From the NCBI GenBank assembly GCA_947259045.1, contig CAMYKZ010000014.1, forward strand, positions 1-64,000: DNA of 64,000 nt, written 5' to 3'. Position 1 is the stretch's first letter; each line of letters opens with the position of its first letter. The notes under the pieces were generated by a model that did not search any database, was not told where the DNA came from, and saw only the letters and a list, made by a program, of their open reading frames with translations. The translations under genes and the position numbers were made by a program. The DNA is from an uncultured Afifella sp. Its GTDB lineage: Bacteria > Pseudomonadota > Alphaproteobacteria > Rhizobiales > Afifellaceae. Of the stretch, positions 7,559 to 59,536 are shown piece after piece.

Positions 7559-9091
7559 GTGGCCTTGTCGGCAAAGCTCCAGGTCAAACAAAGCCAGTCG
7601 CTGACGATGACGCCGCAACTGATGCAGGCCATCCGTCTGCTGCAGATGTCCGCTGTCGAGCTTGACCGGTTTGTCGAGGAGGAACTGGCCGAAAATCCGC
7701 TTCTCGCCAGCGCAGATGACGGCGACGGCGCGGCAGATGGCAGTTCGGCACAGGCCGACGGCGCAGCTGCCGAAACCGGTCCGGCCGATCAGCCGGTCGA
7801 CGAGCCGGTTGTCGCTGATATGACCGATATTATCGGATCGGACCAAACGACAGGTTCGGCCGATCTGGACGTTTCAAGCACGGATACCGATCCGGGGTCT
7901 GAGGCAGTCAGCCGGGACCCGCTTCGCGAACGCGCCGCCGGAGTGTCCGGATCCGGCCATGATGAATTTACGCCCGACATTGAGGCGACGCTGGCAGCAA
8001 AACCGGGCCTGAGCGGGCACCTGGAAGATCAGATCCAGGCCATGATGCGGGATCCGACCGACTATGCCATTTCCCTCTCCCTGTTGTCCCACCTCGATCC
8101 CGCCGGTTATCTGACGGTTGCCGTTGCCGACATTGCCCGGGATCTTGCAGTGCCGGAGCAGCATGTTGAGCAGGTTCTGCTGCGGTGTCAGGCGGTCGAG
8201 CCGACCGGTGTCTTTGCCCGCTCGCTGGGCGAATGCCTTGGCTTGCAACTGGCGGATCTCAACCGGCTGGATCCGGCAATTCAGACCCTGCTCGACAATC
8301 TGGCGATGGTTGCAGCCGGCGAGCGGTCTGCGCTGCAGCGCCAATGCGGTGTCAGTGTCGAAGAATTCAATGAGATGCTGGCGGAAATCCGGGCGCTTGA
8401 TCCCAAACCCGGACTGGCGTTCGGCCACGATCCCGTTGCCGTGGCTGTCGCCGATATCCTGGTGCGTGAGGCCCCCGATGGCGGCTGGGCAGTCGAACTG
8501 AACGACGAGGTGCTGCCGCGCGTTCTCGTCAACCGCAGCTATTACGCGCAGATTGCCGACACCGGCAGCAAGCAGGACCGGAAATATATTGTCGACTGCA
8601 TGCAGCAGGCAAGCTGGCTGGAAAAAAGCCTGGACCAGCGCGCCCGCACGATTCTCAAGGTGGCGGGGGAAATCGTCAGCCAGCAGGATGAATTTCTCCG
8701 CCACGGCGTCACCAGGCTCAAACCGCTGAACCTGCGTGTTGTGGCCGATGCCGTCGGGGTGCACGAATCGACCGTCAGCCGGGCAACGGCAAACAAATAT
8801 ATGGCGACCCCGCGCGGCCTGTTTGAATTGAAATTCTTCTTTTCCACCGCGATCATGTCGAGCACCGGCGGCGGCGATCATTCGTCGGAAGCCGTCAAAC
8901 ATCGGATTCGCCAGTTGGTGGACGCCGAATCGGCCGATGCCATTCTGTCGGACGATGCGATCGTCGATCTGCTGCAAAAGGACGGGATTGTCATTGCCCG
9001 GCGAACAGTTGCAAAATACCGTGATCTGCTGAAAATCTCGTCTTCGGTTCAACGGAGGCGGCAGAAACGGCAGGATCTTGCGGCAGAGTGA
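7559..9091 (+). CDS. rpoN: RNA polymerase sigma-54 factor
   Basis: Sigma-54 directs RNA polymerase to -24/-12 promoters and needs enhancer-binding ATPases. The Gln/Leu-rich region I (LQVKQSQSLTMTPQLMQAIRLLQMS) is at the N-terminus, followed by an acidic region II rich in Asp/Ala (about residues 45-145), the core-binding domain, a helix-turn-helix (HESTVSRATANKYMATPRG) and the C-terminal RpoN box ARRTVAKYRDLLKI. The GTG at 7559 gives the canonical N-terminus; an in-frame GTG at 7523 would add 12 unlike residues. Gene order lptB-rpoN-hpf-ptsN is conserved in related bacteria. Confidence 0.94.
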   Translation: MALSAKLQVKQSQSLTMTPQLMQAIRLLQMSAVELDRFVEEELAENPLLASADDGDGAADGSSAQADGAAAETGPADQPVDEPVVADMTDIIGSDQTTGSADLDVSSTDTDPGSEAVSRDPLRERAAGVSGSGHDEFTPDIEATLAAKPGLSGHLEDQIQAMMRDPTDYAISLSLLSHLDPAGYLTVAVADIARDLAVPEQHVEQVLLRCQAVEPTGVFARSLGECLGLQLADLNRLDPAIQTLLDNLAMVAAGERSALQRQCGVSVEEFNEMLAEIRALDPKPGLAFGHDPVAVAVADILVREAPDGGWAVELNDEVLPRVLVNRSYYAQIADTGSKQDRKYIVDCMQQASWLEKSLDQRARTILKVAGEIVSQQDEFLRHGVTRLKPLNLRVVADAVGVHESTVSRATANKYMATPRGLFELKFFFSTAIMSSTGGGDHSSEAVKHRIRQLVDAESADAILSDDAIVDLLQKDGIVIARRTVAKYRDLLKISSSVQRRRQKRQDLAAE

Positions 9092-9233
9092 CAGCCGGCG
9101 GCATCCACAGTCGCGGCGGTGATCCATTGACTTGCGAAGCCGCGGAGATTAAACGTCCGCCTCGCATTGATCGTCGCCTTGAAACGGGCGAATCTGACTG
9201 GAATAATGCAACAACCACTGGACGATCTTAATC

Positions 9234-9809
9234 ATGGTTCTGAAGATATCGGGCAAGAACGTCGATATCGGGCAGGCGCTTCGCACCCGTGCCGAAAGCG
9301 CAATCACCGATGCCGTCGGCAAATTTTTTGATGGCGGCTTTTCCGGCCATGTCACACTGTCCAAATCCGGGCGGAATTTCCGCACCGAATGTTCCGTTCA
9401 TCTCGATACCGGCATGGTGTTTGAGGCGAGCGGCAGCGACGTTGACGCCCATTCAAGTTTTGACAAGGCCTCCGAACGGCTGGAGAAACGGCTGCGTCGC
9501 TACAAACGCCGGCTGAAAGATCACAAAAAGCAGTCGGGGCGGGCAGGAAACAATGTCGGCGCTTTTGTTCTTGAAGGGCCGGCGGAAGATTCCGAAGTGA
9601 TGGACGACTGGGCTCCGGCGATTGTCGCGGAGACCCGCGCCACGATCCACACCATGTCCGTCAGCAATGCGGTGATGGAACTGGATATGACGGACGCGCC
9701 GGTGGTGGTGTTTCGCAATGCGACCCACGGCGAGATCAATGTCGTTTACCGGCGGCCGGATGGCCATTTCGGCTGGGTTGACCCCTCCCTGGCTGAATCG
9801 TCGGATTAG
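9234..9809 (+). CDS. hpf: Ribosome hibernation promoting factor, long form
   Basis: A 191-residue long-form HPF, which pairs and silences 70S ribosomes in stationary phase. The N-terminal RaiA/YfiA ribosome-binding domain covers about residues 1-100 and includes the basic helix ending RLRRYKRRLKDHK; after a linker comes the dimerisation domain (about residues 138-185: NAVMELDMTDAPVVVFRN, INVVYRRPDGHFGWVDP). It sits between rpoN and ptsN, the standard location in proteobacteria. The low-GC tract just upstream may hold its promoter. Confidence 0.93.
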   Translation: MVLKISGKNVDIGQALRTRAESAITDAVGKFFDGGFSGHVTLSKSGRNFRTECSVHLDTGMVFEASGSDVDAHSSFDKASERLEKRLRRYKRRLKDHKKQSGRAGNNVGAFVLEGPAEDSEVMDDWAPAIVAETRATIHTMSVSNAVMELDMTDAPVVVFRNATHGEINVVYRRPDGHFGWVDPSLAESSD

Positions 9810-9867
9810 GGCACTTTCCGGCGCCGCACGATGACGCCGGGCACGAAATGCAGCGAGAGCGAGTTCC

Positions 9868-10338
9868 ATGGATCTGAGCGATTTAATAGCTGAAAATGCG
9901 GTCATGCCGGCCCTGAAAGCGCAGAGCAAGAAACAGCTGCTTCAGGAAATGTGCGGCAAGGCTTCGCGTCTTACCGGTCTGTCTGAGCGCGAGATCTTCG
10001 ACACCATCCTGCAGCGTGAAAAGCTCGGTTCGACGGGTGTCGGCAACGGCGTGGCGATCCCGCACGGAAAATTGCGCTCCATTGAAAAGATCGTCGGCGT
10101 TTTCGCCCGGCTTGCCAAACCGGTCGATTTCGACGCGCTGGACGACCAGCCGGTCGATCTCGTGTTCCTTCTCCTGGCGCCTGAGGGCGCCGGCGCCGAT
10201 CATCTGAAAGCGCTCGCCCGTATCGCCCGCTTGTTGCGTGACGGACAGGTTGCCGAAAAACTCCGCGCCACCGACAACGCCGATGCGCTTTATGCGCTAT
10301 TGATCAGTTCCTCCGATCAGCCTCACGCGGCTGCCTGA
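9868..10338 (+). CDS. ptsN: PTS nitrogen-regulatory protein EIIA(Ntr)
   Basis: Phosphocarrier of the nitrogen PTS (EI-Ntr, NPr, EIIA-Ntr). It does not transport sugar but regulates potassium uptake, nitrogen and carbon metabolism by its phosphorylation state. The phosphoacceptor is His66 in GVGNGVAIPHGKL. Length (156) is normal and the C-terminal ALARIARLLRDGQVAEKLR segment is family-typical. It lies 58 bases after hpf in the same direction and faces the DUF1150 gene. Confidence 0.93.
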   Translation: MDLSDLIAENAVMPALKAQSKKQLLQEMCGKASRLTGLSEREIFDTILQREKLGSTGVGNGVAIPHGKLRSIEKIVGVFARLAKPVDFDALDDQPVDLVFLLLAPEGAGADHLKALARIARLLRDGQVAEKLRATDNADALYALLISSSDQPHAAA

Positions 10339-46189: not shown

Positions 46190-46495
46190 TGTCCTGGAAC
46201 CTGTTCGCTGCGGTCATTTCTGAAGATCGGAACTGCGAATGTGGGAGGCACGATTTCGCTGCCAATGCGTTAAACGCCATCTCCGCCGTGCTGGCAAGCA
46301 TGTCCGGTGCCGTGACTGCCGCGGGCCTGTCCGGCCGAGTTGAAAAAACCGGGTGCAATACAAAACGCGGCGTGTTTAGCTATGGCATCAGCGAACTTTC
46401 GGTCGGACCTTTCAGCTTGGAACGTTCGCTTGAGAAAGCCCGGCAAGGGCGTGTTTCAAGACCCAAATCGGGCGTTAGAGAGACGGGAGCAGATT
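46190..46495. other. Divergent intergenic region, glk and nucleoside-importer operon
   Basis: About 306 bases between two divergent genes. It should contain promoters for both, but only weak hexamer-like elements are visible (a TTGAAA at 46340). No riboswitch fold, RNA gene or repeat was recognised. Reading frames through it are short and lack ribosome sites. Confidence 0.4.
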
Positions 46496-47497
46496 ATGCA
46501 GAAAAGATGGCTTTGCGCCGCAGCCGCGTTCGTCATGACGGCTTTTACGGCGACACAGGGTATGGCCGAAGGGCCGGCGGTCGTCTTCGACCTGGGCGGC
46601 AAGTTCGACAAGAGTTTCAATGAAGCCGCCTTTAACGGCGCCGAACGGTTCAAGGCGGAAACCGGCACGGACTACCGCGAATTCGAGGTCCAGAACGCCT
46701 CGCAGCGCGAACAGGCACTGCGCAATTTTGCCCGCCGCGGCCATAATCCCGTCGTCGGCATCGGTTTCGCCCAGGCCCAGGCGCTGGAAAAGGTCGCCAA
46801 GGAATTTCCAGATACCAATTTTGCCATCATCGACATGGTCGTCGACCTGCCGAATGTCCGCTCCGTCGTGTTCAAGGAGCATGAGGGTTCATTTCTCGTC
46901 GGCATGATGGCGGCCCTGGCCTCAAAAACCGGCAAGGTCGGCTTCGTCGGCGGCATGGATATTCCGCTGATCCGCAAATTCGCCTGCGGTTATGTCCAGG
47001 GTGCAAAGGCCGTCAATCCGGATATCGAGGTCTATCAGAACATGACCGGAACCACGGGCGCTGCCTGGAACGATCCGGTCAAGGGCGGCGAACTTGCCAG
47101 GAGCCAGTTCGATCGTGGCGCCGATGTTGTCTATCACGCCGCCGGCGGCACCGGACTTGGCGTGCTGCAGGCAGCAGCTGATGCCGGCAAACTGGGGATC
47201 GGTGTCGATTCCAACCAGAATTACCTGCATCCGGGCTCTATTCTCACGTCCATGATGAAACGGGTCGACAATGCCGTGTTCAACGCCTTCACCGACGGGA
47301 CATCGGGCAATTGGAGTTCCGGCATCCAGGCGTTAGGCCTGCAGGAAGAAGGTGTTGGTTATGCGCTCGATGACAACAATGCCAAGCTGGTCTCAGACGA
47401 CATGAAGGCGAAGGTCGATGAAGCCAGGGCGAAGATCATTGCCGGAGAAATCACGGTCCATGATTACATGTCCGACAATGCCTGCCCGGCGTCCTGA
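46496..47497 (+). CDS. BMP-family nucleoside-type substrate-binding protein
   Basis: Periplasmic receptor of the BMP (basic membrane protein/PnrA) family, whose members bind purine nucleosides. It has 333 residues and a signal peptide (about 1-24, cleaved before EGPAVVFD). BMP features are VVFDLGGKFDKSFNEAAFNGAERF, IGFAQAQALEKVAKEFPDTNFAIID, GFVGGMDIPLIRKFACGYVQGAKAV and VVYHAAGGTGLGVLQAA. It lacks a lipobox Cys, as expected in a Gram-negative. It begins an operon of importer and nucleoside-catabolism genes; nucleoside ligand is inferred from that context. Confidence 0.9.
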   Translation: MQKRWLCAAAAFVMTAFTATQGMAEGPAVVFDLGGKFDKSFNEAAFNGAERFKAETGTDYREFEVQNASQREQALRNFARRGHNPVVGIGFAQAQALEKVAKEFPDTNFAIIDMVVDLPNVRSVVFKEHEGSFLVGMMAALASKTGKVGFVGGMDIPLIRKFACGYVQGAKAVNPDIEVYQNMTGTTGAAWNDPVKGGELARSQFDRGADVVYHAAGGTGLGVLQAAADAGKLGIGVDSNQNYLHPGSILTSMMKRVDNAVFNAFTDGTSGNWSSGIQALGLQEEGVGYALDDNNAKLVSDDMKAKVDEARAKIIAGEITVHDYMSDNACPAS

Positions 47498-47507
47498 TCG
47501 CGGGGCT

Positions 47508-47546
47508 CTGATCTGACGGATCCTGATCTGACGGATCCTGATCTGG
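47508..47546. repeat. 15-base tandem repeat
   Basis: CTGATCTGACGGATC occurs twice in tandem (47508-47522 and 47523-47537) and a partial third copy follows (CTGATCTGG). It starts 10 bases after the stop of the binding-protein gene, in the spacer before the ATPase gene. Role unknown; it may influence mRNA stability. Confidence 0.75.
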
Positions 47547-47570
47547 CAGGTTATGAATGAAAATTCGGTT

Positions 47571-47588
47571 CCGGGCGCATTCGCCCGG
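47571..47588 (+). promoter_or_regulatory. Intercistronic hairpin
   Basis: CCGGGCG pairs with CGCCCGG around CATT in the spacer between the binding protein and ATPase genes. There is no T tract. Such stems commonly shield the upstream mRNA from decay and so raise binding-protein levels over those of membrane components; that role is inferred. Confidence 0.45.
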
Positions 47589-47622
47589 GGCCATTCCAGC
47601 GGCAAAATTATCAGGCTCGTCC

Positions 47623-49173
47623 ATGACCTCACCTGCGCCAACAGCGCCGCCGGCCATTGAGCTGATCGGCATCGACAAAAGCTTCGGTCAGGTTCGCGCC
47701 AACCGCAACATCAACATGGCGGTCGGCAAAGGATCAATTCACGGTATCGTCGGGGAAAACGGCGCTGGCAAATCCACTCTTATGTCGATCCTTTACGGAT
47801 TTTACCAGGCCGATGCCGGCGAGGTTCGCATCGACGGCCACCGCGCCAATATCCGTTCGCCCGACGATGCCATCGAGGCCGGGATCGGTATGGTGCACCA
47901 GCATTTCATGCTGGTCGATAATTTCTCCGTACTGGAAAACGTCATGCTCGGCGCAGAAGGCGGCGCGCTTCTGAAACGCGGCGTCGCGGCCGCGCGCGCC
48001 GAGTTGCAGCGGCTCGAAGACGATTATGCGCTTGAGGTCGATCCGGATGCGATCATCGGCGATCTGCCCGTCGGTCTGCAGCAACGGGTGGAGATTCTCA
48101 AGGCGCTTTACCGGGGTGCGCAAACGCTGATCCTCGATGAGCCGACCGGAGTGCTGACCCCTTCAGAAGCCGATCATCTGTTCCGTATTCTCAAACAATT
48201 GAGCGCGCAGGGCAAAACCATCATTCTGATTACCCACAAACTGCGCGAAATCATGGCCGCCACGGATGCCGTATCGGTAATGCGGCGCGGCGAGATCGTC
48301 GCAACCTTGCCGACACCGGATACGACGCCGGAAAAGCTGGCCGAGCTGATGGTCGGCCGGCGGGTGCTGCTGCGGGTGGAAAAAGGACCGGCCAAACCGG
48401 GCCGGACAATGCTTGAGGTCGACGGCCTGATTGTTGGCGATCAACGCGGTGTGATGCGCGTCAAGAACATCTCTTTCAGCGTCAAGGCCGGCGAGATCGT
48501 CGGGATTGCAGGTGTCGCCGGAAACGGTCAGTCGGAACTGCTTGAGACTATCGCCGGGATCCGCAGGGCAACAGCAGGACAGGTCATGATCGACGGCAAG
48601 CCGATCGGCGCGACCGGGCGGGCGAACCCGTCAGCCTTGCGCGCAGCCGGCCTGGCCCATGTGCCGGAAGACCGGCACCGGATGGGACTTGTGATGGCAT
48701 TCGAGGAAAACGAAAATGCCATTCTCGGCTATCACAGCGATGATCTTTATCTCAACGGACCGTTTCTGAATATCGAGGCGATCCGCGCCGATGCCCGTGA
48801 AAAAATCGAGCAATACGATATCCGGCCGCCCGATTGCCGGCTGAAAACCGCCAATTTCTCCGGCGGCAACCAGCAGAAGATCGTGCTGGCGCGGGAAATG
48901 GAGCGCGACCCGGGTGTATTGCTGGTCGGCCAGCCGACCCGCGGCGTCGATATCGGCGCAATCGAATTCATCCATCGTCAGCTTGTCGCCATGCGCGACG
49001 CCGGCAAGGCGATCCTGCTGGTCTCGGTCGAACTGGACGAGGTCCGCTCTCTTGCCGACCGTATCCTGGTGATGTTTGACGGTCATATCGTCGGCGAAGC
49101 GGGCTCGGATGCCACCGAAGGGGAGCTTGGCCTGATGATGGCAGGTATCGACAATCGGGAGGCGGCGGAATGA
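47623..49173 (+). CDS. Nucleoside ABC importer ATPase, two nucleotide-binding domains
   Basis: A 516-residue double ATPase of the BMP/ribose-importer type (YufO/NupA-like). The N-terminal domain has Walker A GENGAGKSTLM, a non-standard signature (LPVGLQQRVEILKAL) and Walker B TLILDEPTG; the C-terminal domain has a degenerate Walker A (GVAGNGQSELLE) and an intact signature FSGGNQQKIVLAREM. This asymmetry is normal for the family. The ATG at 47623 has AGG eight bases upstream; an in-frame ATG at 47557 precedes the hairpin and is less likely. The stop overlaps the VOC gene (ATGA). Confidence 0.92.
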   Translation: MTSPAPTAPPAIELIGIDKSFGQVRANRNINMAVGKGSIHGIVGENGAGKSTLMSILYGFYQADAGEVRIDGHRANIRSPDDAIEAGIGMVHQHFMLVDNFSVLENVMLGAEGGALLKRGVAAARAELQRLEDDYALEVDPDAIIGDLPVGLQQRVEILKALYRGAQTLILDEPTGVLTPSEADHLFRILKQLSAQGKTIILITHKLREIMAATDAVSVMRRGEIVATLPTPDTTPEKLAELMVGRRVLLRVEKGPAKPGRTMLEVDGLIVGDQRGVMRVKNISFSVKAGEIVGIAGVAGNGQSELLETIAGIRRATAGQVMIDGKPIGATGRANPSALRAAGLAHVPEDRHRMGLVMAFEENENAILGYHSDDLYLNGPFLNIEAIRADAREKIEQYDIRPPDCRLKTANFSGGNQQKIVLAREMERDPGVLLVGQPTRGVDIGAIEFIHRQLVAMRDAGKAILLVSVELDEVRSLADRILVMFDGHIVGEAGSDATEGELGLMMAGIDNREAAE

Positions 49174-49607
49174 ACGGTGCACACATTTCATTGGTCAGTC
49201 TTGGAGTTGCCGACATTGAGCGTTCGGTCCGATTTTACGAAGCGCTCGGTTGGGTCAGGTCCGGCACCGGCGACGAATCTGTCGCCTTTCTCCAGGGTGG
49301 CAACATCGCGCTTGGCCTGATCGGCAGAGCTGCCTTGGCGGAAGATGCCAATGTCGACGATAGCGCGGCCGGGTTCTCAGCCGTAACGCTTGCTGTCAAC
49401 CTGCCCTCGGAAGCCGATGTCGATGAGCATTTCCAGAAAGCGCTGGCTGCCGGCGCAGCAGGCCGAAAACCGCCGCAAAAGGTTTTCTGGGGCGGCTATT
49501 CCGGTTATTTCGCCGATCCCGACGGGCACCTGTGGGAGGTTGCCCATAATCCCTTCTTCCCGCTCGATGATACAGGTGCGATCCGGCTTCCGGGAGAAAC
49601 AGAATGA
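49170..49607 (+). CDS. VOC/glyoxalase-fold protein inside the importer operon
   Basis: A 145-residue vicinal oxygen chelate protein with two beta-alpha-beta-beta-beta modules. The sequence opens HISLVSLGVADIERSVRFYEALGW and ends with FADPDGHLWEVAHNP, where the Glu is the last metal ligand. The first His is in HISL. VOC proteins include lyases, dioxygenases and resistance proteins, so the activity is not defined. Its start overlaps the ATPase stop and its stop overlaps the permease start (both ATGA), so it is translated together with the transporter. A link with nucleoside processing is inference. Confidence 0.87.
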   Translation: MNGAHISLVSLGVADIERSVRFYEALGWVRSGTGDESVAFLQGGNIALGLIGRAALAEDANVDDSAAGFSAVTLAVNLPSEADVDEHFQKALAAGAAGRKPPQKVFWGGYSGYFADPDGHLWEVAHNPFFPLDDTGAIRLPGETE

Positions 49608-50734
49608 GTGCGCCCTATGCCAAAATTCCGGCCTGGGCCGATTACGGGCTGATCCCGATTCTCAATGTCACTGCGGCTTTCCTGGTGTCCGGGCTGGTTG
49701 TGCTGTTCATCGGCGAAAATCCCATCGAGGCGGTACGCATTCTGATCTGGGGTGCGTTCGGCTGGGGCGAGGGCATCGGCTTCACGCTCTATTACGCCAC
49801 CAATTTCATCTTCACCGGCCTCGCGGTGGCGGTTGCCTTCCATGCCGGACTTTTCAACATCGGCGGCGAGGGCCAGGCCTATCTGGGCGGGCTCGGCGCT
49901 GCAGTCGCCGCCCTGGCGCTCGATCAGTACGTCCCATGGTGGGTGACGTTCCCGATTGCAATTGCCGGCGCTGCCCTGTTTGGCGCGCTGTGGGCGCTGA
50001 TCCCGGCCTGGCTGCAGGCCTATCGCGGCAGCCACATCGTGATCACCACGATCATGTTCAATTTTATCGGCGCATCAATCATGGTCTGGCTGCTGGCCGG
50101 CTATCTCCGGCCGCCCGGTTCCATGGCGCCGGAAAGCCGGACATTCGAGGCAGGTGCGCAATTGCCGAAACTGGGCCGGTTGTTTGAGTTCATCGGGTTG
50201 GAAATCGGCGGCGCGCCGGTCAACATCACCCTGTTCCTGGCTCTGGTTGCCGCCTACGGCGTCTATCTGCTGATCTGGCGGACAAAACTCGGCTATGAGC
50301 TTCGCACCACCGGGCTCAGTCCGACAGCCGGCGTTTACGCCGGTATCGCACCGGCCCGGATCATTATCATCGCGATGCTGATTTCAGGCGCACTGGCCGG
50401 CATGATGGCGCTCAATCCGGTGCTCGGCGAGCAGTACCGGCTTCAGATTGATCTGGCCGGCGGTGCCGGGTTTGTCGGCATCGCCGTTGCCCTGATGGGG
50501 CGGTCTCATCCGATCGGCGTGGTCCTGGCGGCAATTCTGTTCGGCGCCCTGTACCAGGGCGGAGCGGAACTCGCCTTCGAGATTCCCAAGATCAGCCGGG
50601 ACATGATCATTGTCATTCAGGCTCTGGTGATCCTGTTTGCCGGCGCACTTGAACATATGTTTCGGCCTTCAATCGGCCGGTTGTTTGCGATGTTCGGCAC
50701 GCGTGGATCGGAACTGGCTGAGGAGGCGTCCTGA
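49604..50734 (+). CDS. Nucleoside ABC importer permease 1
   Basis: Inner-membrane permease of the BPD_transp_2 family, 376 residues, about ten hydrophobic helices. FHAGLFNIGGEGQAYLGGLGAA is a hallmark of BMP-type importer permeases, and TTGLSPTAGVYAGIAPARIIIIAMLISGALAGMMA follows in the second half. It resembles YufP-type nucleoside permeases. The start overlaps the VOC stop and its stop shares a base with permease 2 (TGATG). Confidence 0.92.
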   Translation: MSAPYAKIPAWADYGLIPILNVTAAFLVSGLVVLFIGENPIEAVRILIWGAFGWGEGIGFTLYYATNFIFTGLAVAVAFHAGLFNIGGEGQAYLGGLGAAVAALALDQYVPWWVTFPIAIAGAALFGALWALIPAWLQAYRGSHIVITTIMFNFIGASIMVWLLAGYLRPPGSMAPESRTFEAGAQLPKLGRLFEFIGLEIGGAPVNITLFLALVAAYGVYLLIWRTKLGYELRTTGLSPTAGVYAGIAPARIIIIAMLISGALAGMMALNPVLGEQYRLQIDLAGGAGFVGIAVALMGRSHPIGVVLAAILFGALYQGGAELAFEIPKISRDMIIVIQALVILFAGALEHMFRPSIGRLFAMFGTRGSELAEEAS

Positions 50735-51738
50735 TGGATCTGCTTATCCAGACGCTTGATTCGGCGATCCGGCTCACGACGCCCCTGATCCTGGCCTGCC
50801 TTGCGGGGCTCTATTCCGAACGCGCCGGCATTTTCGATATCGGACTTGAAGGAAAAATGCTGGCCGCGGCCTTTGCCGCCGGCGCCGCTGCTGCTGTCGC
50901 CGATTCCGCCTGGGTCGGCCTGTTTGCGGCGATCCTGGCATCGACAGGTTTCGCGCTGCTGCACGGATTTGCCTCCATCACCCAGCGCGGCAATCAGATC
51001 GTCTCCGGCGTGGCGATCAATTTTCTTGCCGCCGGGCTGGCGGTTCTGCTCGGTGATGTCTGGTTTCGCCAGGGCGGGCGCACGCCCCAGCTCTCCGCCG
51101 ATGGACGTTTCAGGGGCGTCGAACTGGAAAACTTCCCGCAAATGGGCAGCGTCGGCGATACGCTCTATTCGATCATGAAGCCGATTGCGGAGATTCCGGT
51201 CATCGGCAGGCTGTTCGAACAATTGGTGCTTGGACACAATCTGCTTGTCTATGTGGCGTTTCTGGCTGTTCCGGTCACCTGGTGGATTGTCTACCGGACC
51301 CGGTTCGGCCTTCGGCTTCGGGCTGTCGGCGAAAATCCGGCTGCTGTAGACACTGCCGGGGTTTCCGTCATCTGGCTGCGTTACAGGGCGGTGATCATCT
51401 GCGGCATTCTGTGCGGCGTCGCAGGCGCCTATCTGTCGATCGCCCAGTCGGTCGGGTTCACCAAGGACATGTCGGCAGGCCGCGGGTTCATTGCGCTCGC
51501 AGCGCTGATCTTTGCCAAATGGCGGCCCTGGCCCGCGCTTGGCGCCTGTTTCCTGTTCGGCTTTCTGGAGGCTGGAGCGAACATCCTTCAGGGCCGTGAT
51601 ATGCCTGTTATCGGCGACGTGCCGGTCCAGTTCATTCAGGCGTTGCCTTATATTCTGACCGTGGTTCTGCTCGCCGGGTTTATCGGCAAGGCGGTGCCGC
51701 CCAAGGCCGGCGGCGTGCCCTATGTGAAGGAACGGTGA
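50734..51738 (+). CDS. Nucleoside ABC importer permease 2
   Basis: Second BPD_transp_2 permease, 334 residues, about eight to ten helices; forms a heterodimer with permease 1. Hallmarks are CLAGLYSERAGIFDIGLEGKMLAAAFAA near the start and RAVGENPAAVDTAGVSVIWLRYRAVIICGILCGVAGAYLS in the middle. YufQ-like. The stop overlaps the cytidine deaminase start (TGATG), physically linking uptake to catabolism. Confidence 0.92.
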   Translation: MDLLIQTLDSAIRLTTPLILACLAGLYSERAGIFDIGLEGKMLAAAFAAGAAAAVADSAWVGLFAAILASTGFALLHGFASITQRGNQIVSGVAINFLAAGLAVLLGDVWFRQGGRTPQLSADGRFRGVELENFPQMGSVGDTLYSIMKPIAEIPVIGRLFEQLVLGHNLLVYVAFLAVPVTWWIVYRTRFGLRLRAVGENPAAVDTAGVSVIWLRYRAVIICGILCGVAGAYLSIAQSVGFTKDMSAGRGFIALAALIFAKWRPWPALGACFLFGFLEAGANILQGRDMPVIGDVPVQFIQALPYILTVVLLAGFIGKAVPPKAGGVPYVKER

Positions 51739-52142
51739 TGGCTGAAACCGATAAGGACGAACTGTTCCGCGCAGCACTCGATGTGCGCGCCCGGGCCCAC
51801 GCGCCCTATTCCGGATTTCCGGTTGGTGTCGCCCTGCGGACAGAGGCCGGAAATGTCTATGCCGGCTGCAACGTTGAAAACGCCTCCTATCCGGAAGGCG
51901 CCTGCGCGGAAACCGGGGCGATTTCCGCAATGGTCGCCGGCGGCGGCGGTCAGATCATCGAGCTTTGCGTTGTCGGCGACAGCGAAGCGCCGATTTCGCC
52001 ATGCGGCGGCTGCCGCCAGCGCATTGCCGAATTCGGCTCCGTCGACACGATCGTCCATTCGGCAGATCCGGGCGGCATTCGCGAGACTTGGCGTCTGGGC
52101 GATCTGTTGCCGGTGGCATTTGGCATGGGAGGCGGATCATGA
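51738..52142 (+). CDS. cdd: Cytidine deaminase
   Basis: Converts cytidine or deoxycytidine to uridine or deoxyuridine. A 134-residue tetrameric-type enzyme: the zinc-binding signature is CNVENASYPEGACAETGAI (Cys ligand and catalytic Glu) and PCGGCRQRIAEF (two further Cys ligands). APYSGFPVGVAL is the substrate-binding start. It is the first catabolic gene after the importer; start ATG overlaps the permease stop and its stop overlaps punA. In-frame GTG three bases earlier is less likely. Confidence 0.95.
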   Translation: MAETDKDELFRAALDVRARAHAPYSGFPVGVALRTEAGNVYAGCNVENASYPEGACAETGAISAMVAGGGGQIIELCVVGDSEAPISPCGGCRQRIAEFGSVDTIVHSADPGGIRETWRLGDLLPVAFGMGGGS

Positions 52143-52939
52143 GTGCTGCAGACAATTGCGCCATCGTTGAACAACGCACAAAGCTCAGGCCGAAGCTGGC
52201 TCTGGTGCTCGGTTCCGGCCTGGGTGATTTCACCGGCCAGGTCGCGGACCCGGTGACCATCCCCTATGGCGATCTTGCAGGGTTCCCGCCGACCGGCGTT
52301 TCCGGCCATGCCGGCACTCTGGTCATCGGTCTGATATCCGGCGTGCCTGTCGCCGTACTGTCGGGCCGCGCGCATTATTACGAACACGGCAATGCGGCTG
52401 CGATGCGCCCGGCGCTGGAAACTCTTGCCGCTTTCGGCATCGAAGACCTGATCCTGACCAACTCCGCCGGCGGCCTGAACCCGGACAATGCGCCCGGTTC
52501 CGTCATGCTGATCAGCGACCATATCAATTTTTCCGGCACCAACCCGCTGATCGGCGAACCGTCCGATGCGCGCTTCGTCGGTTTGACGGAGGCCTATGAC
52601 AGGGCCATCTGCGGGCGCCTGAAATCTGCTGCCGCCCGGCTTGAGATTGAATTGCCGGCAGGCGTCTATATGTGGTTCTCCGGCCCGTCCTTCGAGACGC
52701 CGGCGGAAATCCGGGCGGCCCGCGTGCTCGGGGCCGACGCCGTTGGCATGTCGACTGTGCCGGAGGTCATTCTGTGCCGCTTTCTCGGCCTGCGGGTCGC
52801 AGCCCTGTCGATCATCACCAATCTGGCTGCCGGCATGACCGGCGCGGAACTGTCGCATGAGGAAACCAAGCACGTCGCGCCGCAGGGCGGTGCGAAACTG
52901 GCGAAGATCATCGCGGCTTATCTGGAGGAAGCGTCATGA
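52139..52939 (+). CDS. punA: Purine-nucleoside phosphorylase (PunA type)
   Basis: Phosphorolyses inosine and guanosine and their deoxy forms to free base plus (deoxy)ribose-1-phosphate. A trimeric PNP-family protein of 266 residues: phosphate-binding GSGLGDF and GRAHYYEHG, TNSAGGLNP, the GPSFETPAEIRAARVLGADAVGMSTVPEVILC block, and ITNLAAGM with the Asn that selects 6-oxopurines. Start is the ATG overlapping the cdd stop (ATGA); a long in-frame extension upstream reads through cdd and is spurious. Confidence 0.94.
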   Translation: MSAADNCAIVEQRTKLRPKLALVLGSGLGDFTGQVADPVTIPYGDLAGFPPTGVSGHAGTLVIGLISGVPVAVLSGRAHYYEHGNAAAMRPALETLAAFGIEDLILTNSAGGLNPDNAPGSVMLISDHINFSGTNPLIGEPSDARFVGLTEAYDRAICGRLKSAAARLEIELPAGVYMWFSGPSFETPAEIRAARVLGADAVGMSTVPEVILCRFLGLRVAALSIITNLAAGMTGAELSHEETKHVAPQGGAKLAKIIAAYLEEAS

Positions 52940-53757
52940 CCGATCAGGGCGGCGCCGGAGATGACCGCAAGGACCGGGCAAGGCTGGCGCTCACCTGCCT
53001 GGATCTGACCGATCTCAATGACGATTGCACGGCGGCCGATATCGAAAACCTGTGCGCCCGCGCGGTAACCCCATTCGGTCATGTTGCTGCAATCTGCATC
53101 TGGCCGCGATTTGTCAAACAGGGTGTGGAACTGCTGAAGGACACGCCGGTGCGGGTGGCGACTGTTGTCAATTTCCCGGCCGGCGGCGAAGACGCCGGGG
53201 CGGTGATTGCCGAAACCGAGGCTGTTATTGCCAATGGCGCCAATGAAGTGGACCTGGTGATGCCCTACCGGCGGATTCTGGACGATACCAATCTGGTCTA
53301 TTCCGTGATTGCCGGGACCCGCGGGGCGGCAGGCAAGGCGCTGCTCAAGGTGATCCTGGAAACAGGCGAACTCAAAGACGGCGTACTGATCCGCATGGCA
53401 TCGGAAATCGCCATGGACGGCGGCGCAGATTTCATCAAGACATCGACGGGCAAGGTGCCGGTCAATGCAACGCCGGAGGCCGCCGCCATCATGCTGTCGG
53501 TGATTGCCGACCATGGCGGCGATGTCGGTTTCAAACCGGCCGGCGGCATCAGGACGCTTGCCGACGCAGACGTCTATCTCGATCTGGCGGACGAGGCGCT
53601 TGGGTCCGACTGGGCAACGCCACGGACATTCCGGCTCGGGGCGTCGAGCCTGCTCGATAATCTGCTGACCTATCTGGAAGGCAGGCCGGCTGCCAGCGCG
53701 GATAACAGTGCGGATAACAGTGCGGATAACAGTGCGGATGCCGGGAAAGGCTATTGA
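52936..53757 (+). CDS. deoC: Deoxyribose-phosphate aldolase with repeat-encoded tail
   Basis: Splits 2-deoxyribose-5-phosphate to glyceraldehyde-3-phosphate and acetaldehyde. Class I aldolase; the Schiff-base Lys is in DFIKTSTGK (about residue 168), with the second active-site Lys in VGFKPAGGIRT. VNFPAGGEDAGAVIAE and NEVDLVMPYRRIL are conserved. The C-terminus carries a non-conserved tail with ADNS repeated three times, encoded by 12-base tandem repeats. The start overlaps punA (ATGA); deoA follows after three bases. Confidence 0.94.
   Translation: MTDQGGAGDDRKDRARLALTCLDLTDLNDDCTAADIENLCARAVTPFGHVAAICIWPRFVKQGVELLKDTPVRVATVVNFPAGGEDAGAVIAETEAVIANGANEVDLVMPYRRILDDTNLVYSVIAGTRGAAGKALLKVILETGELKDGVLIRMASEIAMDGGADFIKTSTGKVPVNATPEAAAIMLSVIADHGGDVGFKPAGGIRTLADADVYLDLADEALGSDWATPRTFRLGASSLLDNLLTYLEGRPAASADNSADNSADNSADAGKGY
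53698..53739. repeat. 12-base tandem repeat inside deoC
   Basis: GCGGATAACAGT occurs three times perfectly, followed by a half copy (GCGGAT). It encodes ADNS-ADNS-ADNS-AD in the poorly conserved tail. As 12 is a multiple of three, copy-number change would lengthen or shorten the tail without frameshift. Confidence 0.9.
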
Positions 53758-53760
53758 TCC

Positions 53761-55074
53761 ATGGTGCTGATGCCGCAGGAAATCATCCGCAGGAAACGTG
53801 ACGGCGAGGCGCTGGACGCCGGAGAAATCGCATTCATGGTCGAGGGTTTGACCGACGGGCGTGTCACCGAGGGGCAGGTCGCCGCCTTCGCCATGGCGGT
53901 TTTCTTCCAGGATATGAATATGGACGAGCGTGTGGCCCTGACATTGGCCATGCGCGATTCCGGTGACGTGCTCACCTGGCCCGACGCCGATGGCCCGGTG
54001 CTCGACAAACATTCCACCGGCGGTGTCGGCGACAATGTCTCCCTGATGCTGGCGCCGATCGTTGCTGCATGCGGCGGTGTCGTGCCGATGATTTCAGGCC
54101 GCGGACTGGGCCACACCGGCGGCACGCTGGACAAGCTTGATTCCATTCCAGGCTATGCGACGCAGCCCGACAATGACCTGTTTCGCAAGGCGGTCGCCGA
54201 GGCCGGATGCGCCATCATCGGCCAGACCGGCGATCTGGCGCCTGCCGACAAACGCTTCTATGGCATCCGCGACGTGACGGCGACGGTGGAATCCGTTTCG
54301 CTGATCACCGCTTCCATCCTGTCGAAAAAGCTTGCGGCCGGCCTTGAAGGCCTGGTGCTTGACGTCAAGACCGGCTCCGGCGCTTTCATGTCGGGGCTGG
54401 AGGAAGCACGCGAGCTGGCCCGGAGCCTGGTCAGTGTCGCCAACGGGGCCGGGCTGAAAACGACGGCGCTGATTACCGATATGGATCAGCCGCTGGCGTC
54501 GGCTGCGGGTAATGCCGTTGAAGTGCTGAATGCGATCGACTATCTCACAAGCGACGGGCGCGATGACCGGCTGCATCAGGTGGTCCTGGCGCTGGCGGCG
54601 GAAATGCTCGTATCGGGCGGTCTTTCAGACAATGCAGAGGCCGGGCATGCGGCAGCGCTCAACGCGCTGGAAAGCGGTCGGGCGGCGGAGCGTTTCCAGA
54701 CCATGGTCGACGTGCTCGGCGGGCCGGCTGATCTGGTTGAAAGGCCCGGCGATCATTTGCCTGTAGCGCCGATCATCGGGCCGGTGCAGGCCGGCCGGGA
54801 TGGTGTGCTCGCTTCGGTTGATGCAAGGGCAATCGGCGTTGCCGTGATTGCCCTTGGCGGCGGCCGCACGCGTGCTGCCGATGCCATCGATCATGCCGTT
54901 GGTTTGACCGGACTTGCCCTGATCGGCAGGGACATCAGAGCCAACGAGCCGCTGGCGTTTGTCCATGCCCGCGACGAAGCGTCGTTGCAACAGGCGGCAG
55001 AGATGGTCAGACAGGCCTATCGTTTCGGCGGTGCGCCGGAGCCGGCGCCGATGATTATTGAAAGGATCGATTGA
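53761..55074 (+). CDS. deoA: Thymidine phosphorylase
   Basis: Releases thymine or uracil from deoxynucleosides, giving 2-deoxyribose-1-phosphate. A family-3 glycosyltransferase-fold phosphorylase of 437 residues: the signature [24 protein letters not shown] binds phosphate, and [21 protein letters not shown] is DeoA-typical; [11 protein letters not shown] and the C-terminal alpha/beta domain are complete. It lies three bases after deoC and abuts deoB directly. Confidence 0.95.
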
Positions 55075-56292
55075 GTGGCCCGCGCAATTCTTCTGGTGAT
55101 GGATTCCGTCGGCATCGGCGGTGCGCCCGACGCTGCCGATTTCGGCGATGAGGGGTCCGATACATTTGGCCATATCGCCGCGGCCTGTGCTGCAGGCGAA
55201 GCCGACAATGATATCCGCAAAGGACCGTTGCAGGTGCCCAACATGAACCGTCTCGGCCTGTGTCGTGCTGCGGAAGCCTCTACCGGTCGACACCCTGACG
55301 GCATTGAGCGGATCAAGATGCCGCAATCGATATGGGGTCATGCCAGCGAAGTCTCCAAAGGCAAGGATACGCCGTCCGGCCATTGGGAACTGGCCGGGCT
55401 GCCGGTTCCGTTCCAATGGGGTTATTTTCCCCAAACCGTGCCGACCTTTCCAGCCGATCTGACGGACGCGCTGATTGAGCAGGCGGCGCTGCCGGGAATT
55501 CTCGGCAACAAACACGCATCGGGCACACAGATCATTGCCGAGCTCGGCGAAGAGCATGTCAGCAGCGGAAAACCCATCTGCTACACATCCGCCGACTCCG
55601 TCATGCAGATTGCCGCCCACGAAGACCATTTCGGTCTTGACCGGCTTTACAGCCTTTGCGAAATCGCCCGCCCGCTATGCGATCCGCTGAATATCGGCCG
55701 CGTCATTGCACGGCCGTTTCTCGGCGAAAGCGCCGATACGTTCCAGCGCACGGCCAACCGGCGCGATTATTCCGTGCCGCCGCCCGGCGTGACATTGCTG
55801 GATCATGCGGTTTCAATCGGCCGCCGGGTATTCTCCATCGGCAAGATCGACGACATTTTCGCCCATCGCGGCATAACCGACAGAATCAAGGCGGACGGCA
55901 ACGACGCGCTATTCGATGCGACGCTGCAGGCCTTGAACGAGGCCGGGCCGGGCGATCTGGTATTCGCCAATTTCATCGATTTCGACCAGCTTTACGGCCA
56001 TCGCCGCGATGTCGCCGGTTATGCCGCCTGCCTGGAAGCTTTCGACAGGCGGCTTCCGGAGCTGGAATCGCAGCTCGTAAAAGGCGATTTTGCCGTGCTG
56101 ACGGCCGATCACGGCAACGACCCGACCTGGACCGGGACCGATCATACCCGCGAGAACGTGCCTGTCCTGGCCTTCGGCCCGGGGTTGGAACCGCGCAGTG
56201 CCGGTCATATGCAGACCTTTGCCGATGTCGGCCAGACCCTTGCCGCCCATCTCGCATTGCCGCCGATGGGCGCAGGCGCCAGTTTTATTTGA
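55075..56292 (+). CDS. deoB: Phosphopentomutase
   Basis: Moves phosphate from C1 to C5 of ribose or deoxyribose, linking the phosphorylases to DeoC. Alkaline-phosphatase-fold metalloenzyme of 405 residues. Metal sites are visible as [14 protein letters not shown] (Asp), GHWELAGL, and [21 protein letters not shown] near the C-terminus. The start is GTG, directly following the deoA stop. The gene is followed after 16 bases by the PHYHD1-like dioxygenase gene. Confidence 0.95.
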
Positions 56293-56308
56293 ACCAACGG
56301 AGTGTGTC

Positions 56309-57190
56309 ATGAAAATTGCCGCCCGATTTGCCGCCTCCGACGATGGTCATCTGGACGAGGCCATGCATTCAGCCTGGCAGCGCGACGGTTTTCTGGTGCT
56401 TGAGAATTTCAAATCGCCGGACGATCTGTTGGAACTGCGCCGGCGGATTGACACCATGGTCGGCGATTTCGACCCCGAAAGCGTACGGACGATCTTCTCC
56501 ACCAGCGAGCAAAGCCATGCCGGCGATGCCTATTTCCGCGAATCCGGCGACAAGGTGCGGTTTTTCTTTGAAGCCGGCGCTTTTGGAGAAACAGGCGAAC
56601 TGAACGTTCCCAAACGCCGGGCGCTGAACAAGATAGGTCATGCCATGCATGATCTGGATCCGGTTTTCAGCCGGTTCTGCCGCGATCCCAAGCTTGCGGC
56701 ACTTGCCGGTGATCTGGGACTGGCCGATCCCGGCCTGATCCAGTCGATGGTGATCTTCAAGCAACCGCGCATCGGCGGTGAGGTCGGCATGCACCAGGAC
56801 GCGACTTTTCTGTACACCGAGCCGGTGTCAGCCACCGGATTGTGGTTCGCACTGGAAGATGCCGATAGGGAGAATGGCTGCCTTGTCGCCTTGCCCGGCG
56901 CCCACAGGGGCCCGCTGGCAGAGCGTTTCCGGTATCACGGCGATGACCTGCGAATGGATCAGTTGCAAGACCCGAATTGGGACGAGGACGATCTGGTCGC
57001 GCTGGAGGCGCCTGCCGGCACTCTTGTCGTTCTGCACGGGCTGTTGCCGCATGGGTCCGCACCCAATTCGAGCCCGCGTTCGCGCGAAGCCTTTGCCCTG
57101 CATGTCTATGATCGCGCATTTGAATGGTCAGATGACAATTGGCTGCGACGGTCTGAAGACATGCCAGTGCGGGGCTTTGCGGACCAGTGA
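56309..57190 (+). CDS. PHYHD1-like 2-oxoglutarate/Fe(II) dioxygenase
   Basis: A 293-residue phytanoyl-CoA dioxygenase-family protein. Iron ligands are His162 and Asp164 (GGEVGMHQDATFLYTEP) and His248 (HGLLPHGS); the 2-oxoglutarate Arg is probably Arg259 (SREAF). From memory the human orphan oxygenase PHYHD1 shares SGDK-x-RFFFE, NKIGHA-x-H-x-x-DPVF, QSM-x-IFKQP, GGEV-x-x-HQDA and ENGCL with it, a very close likeness across kingdoms. The substrate of that family is unknown. Here the gene sits between deoB (16-base gap) and add (overlap of GTGA), suggesting a nucleoside or modified nucleoside substrate. It lacks a signal peptide. Confidence 0.9.
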   Translation: MKIAARFAASDDGHLDEAMHSAWQRDGFLVLENFKSPDDLLELRRRIDTMVGDFDPESVRTIFSTSEQSHAGDAYFRESGDKVRFFFEAGAFGETGELNVPKRRALNKIGHAMHDLDPVFSRFCRDPKLAALAGDLGLADPGLIQSMVIFKQPRIGGEVGMHQDATFLYTEPVSATGLWFALEDADRENGCLVALPGAHRGPLAERFRYHGDDLRMDQLQDPNWDEDDLVALEAPAGTLVVLHGLLPHGSAPNSSPRSREAFALHVYDRAFEWSDDNWLRRSEDMPVRGFADQ

Positions 57191-58155
57191 CGGTGTTGAA
57201 GGCGGAGCTGCACTGCCATCTTGAGGGTGCCACGCCGCCGGCCCTGGCCCGCGCCAAGGCTGCCAAATATGGCGTGACTGTCGATGATCTGATCACGCCG
57301 GATGGTGAAAGTTATGCCTGGTCGGATTTCACGACATTCCTCGCAGCCTATGACAGGATCGCGGGTCTGTTCCGCACGCCGGACGATTTTTTCGATCTCA
57401 GCCACGCTCACTTCGCAGAACTGGCAGGGCAGGGTGCGATTTACGCTGAGGTTTTTCTGTCGCCGGACCATATGGGGCGGCACGGATCCTATCCGGACTG
57501 TCTCGACGCGGTCATTGAAGGCTCGCTGAAGGCGCGTGAGGAGACCGGCATCGAGGGCCGGTTCATCCCGCTGGCGGTTCGAAACTTCGGCCCGGAACGC
57601 GCGCTTGCTGCGGCCGAACAGGCCGTGCGGTACGCCCGGCCTCAGGTAACAGGGTTCGGCCTGGCCGGTGACGAGCGGGCTTTTCTGCCCGCCGATTTTC
57701 ACGCCGCCTTTGCCACCGCCCATGAAGCCGGCCTCTCCTGCACGGCGCACGCCGGAGAACTGGCCGGTGCCGAAAGCGTTCGCCAGGCGCTGGACGCGCT
57801 GCCGGTTTCGCGTATCGGCCACGGTGTGCGGGCGGTCGAAGACGCGGATCTGGTGCGGCGGCTGGCTGATGAAAAAGTGGCCCTGGAAGTCTGCCCGGGA
57901 TCGAATATCGCCTTGGGCATCTATGCCGACCTGGCGGCCCACCCGTTGCGGGCATTGATGGACGCCGGTGTCCGTGTAACGCTGAATTCCGATGACCCGC
58001 CGTTTTTCCGGACGTCGCTTGCGCAGGAGTATGAGTCTTGCGGCGCATCCTGCGGGTTGAGCGAGGCTGAACTGGCCGATCTCACCCGGACCGCGCTGGC
58101 CGCCGCGTTCGTCGACGAAGAGACGCGTCAGCGTCTTTTGCACAGTTTGCCGTGA
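57187..58155 (+). CDS. add: Adenosine deaminase
   Basis: Converts (deoxy)adenosine to (deoxy)inosine, which PunA can then cleave. TIM-barrel amidohydrolase of 322 residues: zinc-binding HCHLEG near the N-terminus, SCTAHAGELAG with the catalytic Glu, RIGHGVRAV and LNSDDPPFF with the final Asp ligand pair. Slightly shorter than E. coli Add (333). GTG start overlaps the dioxygenase stop as GTGA. An adenine deaminase activity cannot be fully excluded, but operon context favours adenosine. Confidence 0.92.
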   Translation: MTVLKAELHCHLEGATPPALARAKAAKYGVTVDDLITPDGESYAWSDFTTFLAAYDRIAGLFRTPDDFFDLSHAHFAELAGQGAIYAEVFLSPDHMGRHGSYPDCLDAVIEGSLKAREETGIEGRFIPLAVRNFGPERALAAAEQAVRYARPQVTGFGLAGDERAFLPADFHAAFATAHEAGLSCTAHAGELAGAESVRQALDALPVSRIGHGVRAVEDADLVRRLADEKVALEVCPGSNIALGIYADLAAHPLRALMDAGVRVTLNSDDPPFFRTSLAQEYESCGASCGLSEAELADLTRTALAAAFVDEETRQRLLHSLP

Positions 58156-58260
58156 GGTCTCTTGCCTGTGCCTTGCGCGCCGGTGCTTTCAGGCTGATAA
58201 CGGTCAGGATTGAGAAACAGGCCGAAATGATGCGGTCGACAATACGGACAGGGACGGTTA

Positions 58261-58896
58261 ATGGGCAAAAAAGGCGTAATGGTAGTTGATCATCCGCTGG
58301 TGCAGCACAAGCTGACGATCATGCGCGACGTGAAGACGTCAACCGCCGGCTTTCGGCAGTTGCTGCGCGAGATCGCCGGTCTTCTGTGTTACGAGGCCAC
58401 CCGCGATCTGAAATTGACGAGCAAACCGATACAGACGCCGATGGCGGAAATGGATGCGCCGACGCTGGCTGGAAAAAAGCTGGTGTTTGCGTCGATCCTG
58501 CGCGCCGGCAACGGCTTGCTTGAGGGAATGCTGGAAATGGTGCCCTCAGCCCGGGTCGCCCATGTCGGCCTCTACCGCGATCACAAGACGCTGGAACCGG
58601 TGGAATATTATTTCAAGGCGCCGGAAGATCTGTCGGAGCGCCTTGTCATTGTCGTCGACCCGATGCTCGCAACGGCAAATTCGGCCATTGCGGCGGTGCA
58701 GCGCCTGAAAGATCAGAATGCCCGCAATCTGCGCTTTGTCTGTCTTCTGGCGGCGCCGGAAGGGGTGGAGAAATTCACCAAGGCCCATCCTGATGTCCCG
58801 GTCATAACCGCAGCAATCGACAGCCATCTGAACGAGAAAGGCTACATTGTGCCTGGGCTGGGTGACGCCGGTGACCGGATGTATGGAACCAAATAG
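58261..58896 (+). CDS. upp: Uracil phosphoribosyltransferase
   Basis: Salvages uracil released by DeoA to UMP using PRPP. A type I PRTase of 211 residues: [41 protein letters not shown], the PRPP loop [11 protein letters not shown] and the uracil-binding C-terminus [17 protein letters not shown]. The PRPP loop is unusual: most bacterial enzymes read ATGGSA where this one reads ATANSA. The gene lies 105 bases after add, last in the cluster and followed by a likely terminator. Confidence 0.93.
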
Positions 58897-58944: not shown

Positions 58945-59005
58945 CAGTTCAGAAACAGCGATTTTCAACCGCTGAGTGGCAATATCGGGCGAAAGGACGT
59001 TCGAT

Positions 59006-59536
59006 ATGCGCGAAATCATGTTTTTCTGCGCTGTGATGGGAATTGCAGCACTCTTCGCACCACAATTGCTCAGCCAGTTTGCGGCTCAGACAACCACTGC
59101 CGATACAAGGCGCGTGGAGAAAACCGAAACGCACAGGGAGACGAACAGGGTTCGCTCGTCTGTGCGTGGCACCGTTGAAATTCCTGTGGCCCGGAACGGT
59201 CATTTTGTCGTCGATGCCGACGTCAATCTCAGTCCGGTCCGTTTTGTCGTCGATACCGGGGCTTCGTTTGTCGCACTTCGCCAGTCTGACGCCGAAATTG
59301 CCGGCATTTATCTGAACCAGTCCGATTTCAATGTTCCCGTTTCCACGGCCAACGGAACCGCCTATGCCGCGCGCGTCCAGCTGGATTCTGTCGAAATTGA
59401 CGGGATCGACATTGATCGAGTCAATGCTGTGGTTTTGCCCGACGGACTTCTTGGAATCAGTCTGCTCGGCAATTCGTTCCTCAATCGTCTGCACCGTTTC
59501 CAGGTATCGGACAATCGGCTGGTGATGGAAAACTAG
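59006..59536 (+). CDS. TIGR02281-type periplasmic retropepsin-like aspartic protease
   Basis: A membrane-anchored clan AA aspartic protease of 176 residues. One N-terminal hydrophobic segment (IMFFCAVMGIAALFAPQLLSQF) serves as anchor, then a retropepsin-like domain with the catalytic FVVDTGASFVALRQSDAEIAGI and the strand GISLLGNSFLNRLHRFQV. It probably works as a homodimer. The cellular role of this family is unknown. ATG at 59006 is preceded by AAAGGA; the longer in-frame start at 58976 is less likely. Confidence 0.87.
   Translation: MREIMFFCAVMGIAALFAPQLLSQFAAQTTTADTRRVEKTETHRETNRVRSSVRGTVEIPVARNGHFVVDADVNLSPVRFVVDTGASFVALRQSDAEIAGIYLNQSDFNVPVSTANGTAYAARVQLDSVEIDGIDIDRVNAVVLPDGLLGISLLGNSFLNRLHRFQVSDNRLVMEN

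Follow-up and report, generated by a model that had tools for sequence, protein, structure and literature searches.

A PHYHD1-type oxygenase gene in a conserved alphaproteobacterial nucleoside operon, predicted to encode a demethylase of free 2'-O-methyl nucleosides

2'-O-methylation is one of the commonest RNA modifications and, to our knowledge, the destiny of freed 2'-O-methyl nucleosides was almost unknown before December 2025. Stonkus et al. (Nucleic Acids Res., 17 Dec 2025; PMC12709175) used growth on 2'-O-methylcytidine as a selection on soil DNA and thereby obtained the oxygenase FJS, encoded in a metagenomic insert of ~1200 bp. They reported that free 2'-O-methyl nucleosides are demethylated by FJS and human PHYHD1 and also by relatives from animals, plants, bacteria, a fungus and a giant virus, with enzymes from Sphingomonas, Poribacteria and Acidisoma among those tested; for PHYHD1 and its bacterial relatives, the activity was demonstrated both in vitro and by complementation in E. 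coli. The FJS reaction depends on 2-oxoglutarate (2OG), is stimulated by iron and releases formaldehyde. Neither FJS nor PHYHD1 accepts 3'-O-methyl nucleosides or nucleoside mono- and triphosphates, methylated RNA is not a substrate of PHYHD1, and human PHYH has no activity on 2'-O-methyl nucleosides; zebrafish without PHYHD1 build up these nucleosides in free form (PMC12709175). Bacteria are known to process 2'-O-methyl nucleosides by one other route, that of the nucleoside hydrolases RK9NH, LbNH and AgNH (PMC6278475, PMC12709175), which belong to an unrelated enzyme class and cleave the glycosidic bond, so that 2'-O-methylribose remains; a likeness to the locus described here is that the RK9NH gene is likewise found adjoining a deoC-like aldolase gene (PMC6278475).

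The DNA stretch analyzed here (hereinafter, the window) comprises 64,000 nucleotides from an uncultured Afifella sp. and contains an open reading frame (ORF) with exact boundaries, running from ATG to TGA, that encodes an oxygenase of 293 aa. The gene starts 16 bp past the deoB stop codon and shares the 4 bp GTGA at its 3' end with the GTG start of add, and both coordinates given in the first-pass annotation, which was made from the sequence alone, were confirmed. The operon, at 46340-58896, lies on a single strand, with small gaps or none between the genes, and its content, namely, a Bmp-type ABC transporter, cdd, punA, deoC, deoA, deoB, the oxygenase gene, add and upp, amounts to nucleoside uptake and degradation (Table 1). 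The neighbors were identified with curated family models, each scoring above its own cut-off; these matches and the Bmp-type transporter confirm the earlier placement of the oxygenase gene amid nucleoside-degrading genes. Promoter and terminator scans across the window operon yielded signal no greater than in shuffles.

Table 1 Features of the nucleoside operon in the window
Feature	Coordinates	Strand	Evidence and remarks
Bmp/PnrA-type substrate-binding protein of an ABC transporter, nucleoside kind	46340..47497	+	PF02608, E 1.8e-68; true start may be inside the ORF
ATPase of the Bmp-type ABC transporter	47557..49173	+	PF00005
ABC permease 1	49604..50734	+	PF02653 (BPD_transp_2)
ABC permease 2	50734..51738	+	PF02653 (BPD_transp_2)
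cdd, cytidine deaminase	51735..52142	+	TIGR01354 and NF004064 above cut-off
punA, purine-nucleoside phosphorylase	52136..52939 (start approximate)	+	TIGR01698 above cut-off
deoC, deoxyribose-phosphate aldolase	52936..53757	+	TIGR00126 above cut-off
deoA, thymidine phosphorylase	53761..55074	+	TIGR02643 above cut-off
deoB, phosphopentomutase	55075..56292	+	TIGR01696 above cut-off
PHYHD1-type Fe(II)/2-oxoglutarate oxygenase, 293 aa	56309..57190	+	ORF, Pfam, sequence and structure comparison
add, adenosine deaminase	57187..58155	+	NF006848 and TIGR01430 above cut-off; GTGA overlap with the oxygenase gene
upp, uracil phosphoribosyltransferase	58261..58896	+	TIGR01091 above cut-off

Two further genes were observed at this locus. 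A small gene of the glyoxalase/VOC fold (PF00903; 49170-49607, +) separates the nucleoside transporter's ATPase gene from the genes for its permeases; it recurs in the same slot in a distantly related genome within the order (locus L022, 17263-17682, 65% identity) and is absent from most of the other operons surveyed. An ORF on the 3' side of upp (58976-59536, +) contains the motif FVVDTGAS and resembles, by eye, a bacterial retropepsin-type aspartic protease.

Among the PDB sequences, the top match of the window oxygenase in a phmmer search is human PHYHD1 (218.8 bits, E 9e-64), whereas the runners-up, EvdO2 and PHYH (2A1X), score 50.4 and 46.9 bits, respectively; the Pfam assignment is PhyH, PF05721 (E 2e-43). 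With an AlphaFold2 model obtained from a 32-row alignment (mean pLDDT 92, pTM 0.92), both PHYHD1 entries head the Foldseek ranking (E 3.7e-32, TM 0.86), and a second structure aligner gives Z 36 and rmsd 1.7 over 267 residues for PHYHD1, against Z 23.9 for the next family. The resemblance to PHYHD1 noticed at first pass is thus borne out by sequence and by the structure comparison proposed there; the accompanying description of PHYHD1 as an orphan enzyme is outdated, the demethylase function having been published (PMC12709175). Identity with human PHYH, the phytanoyl-CoA 2-hydroxylase, was rejected: this protein shares the superfamily, the Pfam family and the iron triad with the window protein but is far more remote (Z 23, and 46.9 against 218.8 bits). 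Also rejected were the ectoine hydroxylase EctD (TIGR02408, 24.2 bits, cut-off 336.5) and a non-haem Fe/2OG halogenase, in view of the presence of Asp164 rather than the Gly or Ala of HxG/HxA motifs; the chlorinating-enzyme model TIGR01762 scores 30.3 bits, short of its cut-off of 226.3.

The iron ligands H162, D164 and H248, which the first-pass annotation had numbered correctly, and R259 of the 2OG site are invariant in 89 homologues. In human PHYHD1, docking, as distinct from a substrate complex, places K102, H105, Q139 and W277 at the ribose and F161 beneath the base (PMC12709175). According to the phmmer alignment, the four ribose contacts correspond to K108, H111, Q145 and W278 of the window protein, all invariant in the 89 homologues, and F161 corresponds to F167, at a position occupied by Phe in 58 of these homologues and by Tyr in 31. 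The window protein and human PHYHD1 isoform A (2OPW, 3OBZ; ~41% identity across the 267 superposed residues) accordingly have in common the fold, the iron triad, the docked ribose contacts and the base-stacking Phe. They differ in that Ser154, which contacts the purine in the docked human enzyme, is replaced by Gly160, a substitution that may alter base preference and does not imply a catalytic change. The region of helix alpha 4 (Q56-L71 in human PHYHD1), which lies near the pocket opening and is missing from some active demethylases (PMC12709175), is about four residues shorter in the window protein (66-77), where the model has two short helices, at 69-72 and 74-77, and the pLDDT is lower. 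Furthermore, the window protein is bacterial and encoded in a nucleoside operon, and its activity is predicted, whereas that of PHYHD1 has been assayed. With FJS, it shares bacterial origin, the PhyH family and a similar size, and a common activity is expected; by the published description, Tyr occupies the F161 position in the bacterial enzymes of that study, in contrast to Phe in the window protein, and C-terminal helices are predicted near the FJS pocket (PMC12709175).

Taken together, our analysis indicates that the window protein is very probably a PHYHD1-type demethylase of free 2'-O-methyl nucleosides that would serve salvage or nutrient use; the reaction has been demonstrated for its relatives in the literature, and we infer both the same reaction and the salvage or nutrient role for the window protein. 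The substrates would be Am, Gm, Cm and Um, originating from rRNA and tRNA turnover or imported via the Bmp-type ABC transporter, with the 2'-methyl group expected to shield them from phosphorolysis. The oxygenase, with Fe(II) and 2OG, would hydroxylate the 2'-O-methyl group, with 2OG converted to succinate and CO2, and the resulting hemiacetal would break down into formaldehyde and an ordinary ribonucleoside. The freed nucleosides would be passed on to Cdd (C to U) and Add (A to I), after which nucleoside phosphorylases would release the base and pentose-1-phosphate, DeoB would convert the latter to pentose-5-phosphate, and Upp would handle uracil. Disposal of formaldehyde would fall to functions outside the operon; no formaldehyde-detoxifying gene was recognized within the window operon.

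The genomic context of the oxygenase gene is conserved far beyond the window. We surveyed a sample of 150 genomes from the order to which the window belongs; 11 are carriers (E below 1e-40), and in all 11 the oxygenase gene adjoins add and/or deoB. We further collected the best 80 homologues from a named collection with their flanks and scanned them by tblastn with the operon proteins of the window; together with the window and the order-survey loci, and with three duplicates discarded, these made up a set of 86 rows. In 42 of the 86, nucleoside genes occur on the strand of the oxygenase gene at a distance of up to 3 kb, and in the maximum-likelihood tree, all 42 fall within one 44-row clade (support 97/89), such that the context label changes twice along the tree, compared with 29 times in shuffles. 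One of the two exceptions in the clade is L063, where the upstream context cannot be read because the gene starts 433 bases from the contig end. The clade is mostly alphaproteobacterial, including Stappiaceae, Paracoccaceae, Rhodobiaceae, Dongiaceae, Reyranellaceae, Kiloniellaceae and others, along with two rows from the gammaproteobacterial Woeseiaceae. Many homologues outside the clade, among them those from Burkholderiales, Acidobacteria, SAR324 and Polyangium, have no such neighbors. Elsewhere, a single match was found on plasmids (Azospirillum, 45%), and among the pattern matches in viral contigs, none was confirmed as a relative. Because the PHYHD1-like gene recurs in the nucleoside operons of many Alphaproteobacteria, clearing of methyl-blocked nucleosides for salvage is its probable role. 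The nucleoside link proposed at first pass, which was to be sought beside deo and add genes across bacteria and given up if the context proved to be conserved nowhere, fits both the published activity of the family and this neighborhood, which is kept in many relatives.

The commonest gene order is transporter-cdd-punA-deoC-deoA-deoB-oxygenase-add-upp. Where add lies 3' of the oxygenase gene, the spacing is between -1 and +73 bp (33 of 33 such loci). Related operons that differ by lacking only the oxygenase gene (L106-L111) run from deoB directly to add, with distances of ~17-32 bp between the matches (e.g., L108, L106), so that the oxygenase gene seems to add an accessory step to a core pathway. 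In Reyranella-type operons, the oxygenase gene is kept and deoB and deoC are missing at the locus, and in IMCC20636 and two relatives, an oxygenase-add-upp unit is distant from deoA, which ties the oxygenase to add and the nucleoside pathway generally rather than to deoxynucleosides.

These arrangements bear on the small chance, in our estimate, that the operon clade acts on something different from the published substrate, e.g., by 2'-hydroxylating deoxynucleosides, which would link the breakdown of deoxynucleosides with that of ribonucleosides through a route not known from bacteria. Specifically, unmodified 2'-deoxynucleosides would be hydroxylated at C2' to ribonucleosides, as by the fungal pyrimidine deoxynucleoside 2'-hydroxylase; Neurospora crassa is known to have a 2OG-dependent enzyme that 2'-hydroxylates nucleosides (work cited in PMC12709175), the operon is shared with deoA, deoB and deoC, and deoxynucleosides are missing from the published substrate table (PMC12709175). 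We nevertheless regard this activity as distinctly unlikely, given that the operon already encodes phosphorolysis, mutase and aldolase steps for deoxynucleosides, that the oxygenase gene persists apart from deoA or without deoC and deoB in the operons just described, and that members of the family demethylate 2'-O-methyl nucleosides (PMC12709175).

The breadth of function within PF05721, with 11 PhyH matches in the source genome, and the location of homologues from Burkholderiales, Acidobacteria and SAR324 away from nucleoside genes would be compatible with a general PhyH-family hydroxylase of another small molecule in an incidental operon position. However, the window protein is much nearer to PHYHD1 than to PHYH, and the slot between deoB or deoA and add is occupied repeatedly in many alphaproteobacterial families, unlike that of an incidental neighbor; with such a difference in score and a context that keeps recurring, a hydroxylase of this sort is very unlikely. 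As for the removal of N-alkyl groups from the nucleobases of free nucleosides (e.g., m6A), in the manner of AlkB and FTO on nucleic acids, other 2OG oxygenases do perform N-demethylation, and the oxygenase gene directly precedes add, with N6-methyladenosine requiring demethylation or a special deaminase, but PHYHD1 and FJS convert N6,2'-O-dimethyladenosine to N6-methyladenosine and N4,2'-O-dimethylcytidine to N4-methylcytidine, retaining the N-methyl group (PMC12709175, Table 1), so this activity is improbable in the extreme.

The substrate guess made at first pass can be sorted along the same lines. Its proposal of O-alkyl removal before salvage coincides with the published function because PHYHD1 and its bacterial relatives demethylate free 2'-O-methyl nucleosides (PMC12709175); N-alkyl removal is disfavored by the retained N-methyl groups. 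Sugar-phosphate and nucleotide substrates were discarded, the former as unlikely, because neither PHYHD1 nor FJS acts on phosphorylated nucleosides, 5'-phosphates included (PMC12709175).

The reaction type being already published for the family, the conserved operon context appears to be the new contribution: a term search of the text of PMC12709175 found no discussion of the gene neighborhoods of the dioxygenases, and no prior mention of this context was found in the open-access papers searched. The conserved placement gives the demethylase a physiological pathway, from uptake through demethylation and deamination to phosphorolysis, and provides independent support for the function assigned to the human enzyme. 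The placement occurs in genera with cultured members, including Stappia, Pseudovibrio, Roseibium, Dongia and Reyranella, and the bacterial role becomes directly testable by gene deletion.

The source genome contains a further add-oxygenase-deoB block (L025, contig C105, 5917 bp), in which the oxygenase is 78% identical to that of the window. The block is followed by the C-terminal half of deoA and then by flippase-like (polysaccharide) and methyltransferase-like genes. A true paralogue was rejected because the block and half of deoA are joined to the flippase-like gene and the genome bin is contaminated at 5.3%; C105 is probably a chimeric or foreign, contaminating contig.

Several additional genes were observed around the oxygenase in other lineages. 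In Reyranella-type operons, add is followed by a gene (PF03767) for a class B acid phosphatase whose start resembles a signal peptide (L074, 11748-12602; this cluster is also represented in L041, L042, L069, L070, L080, L083, L088 and others), which suggests that nucleotides are dephosphorylated outside the cell before uptake and fits an oxygenase that needs dephosphorylated substrates. In operons of Pseudovibrio, Roseibium and Breoghania, a DUF1688 gene (PF07958), which we take to represent the URC4 uracil-catabolism family, directly precedes upp on its 5' side (L029, 12131-13411; also L030, L031, L035 and L039). In Oxalobacteraceae (L090, L066, L052 and other Duganella, Rugamonas and Massilia loci), the PHYHD1-type gene is often accompanied by a divergent LysR regulator and, downstream, by a xylose-isomerase-like TIM-barrel gene (PF01261), outside a deo operon; this arrangement suggests a different pathway or an alternative use of the product. 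In the Woeseiaceae locus L057, a gene divergent from the oxygenase (8482-9981, -) appears, by eye, to encode an amidohydrolase-type nucleoside deaminase of the methylthioadenosine/S-adenosylhomocysteine deaminase kind, a possible additional nucleoside link.
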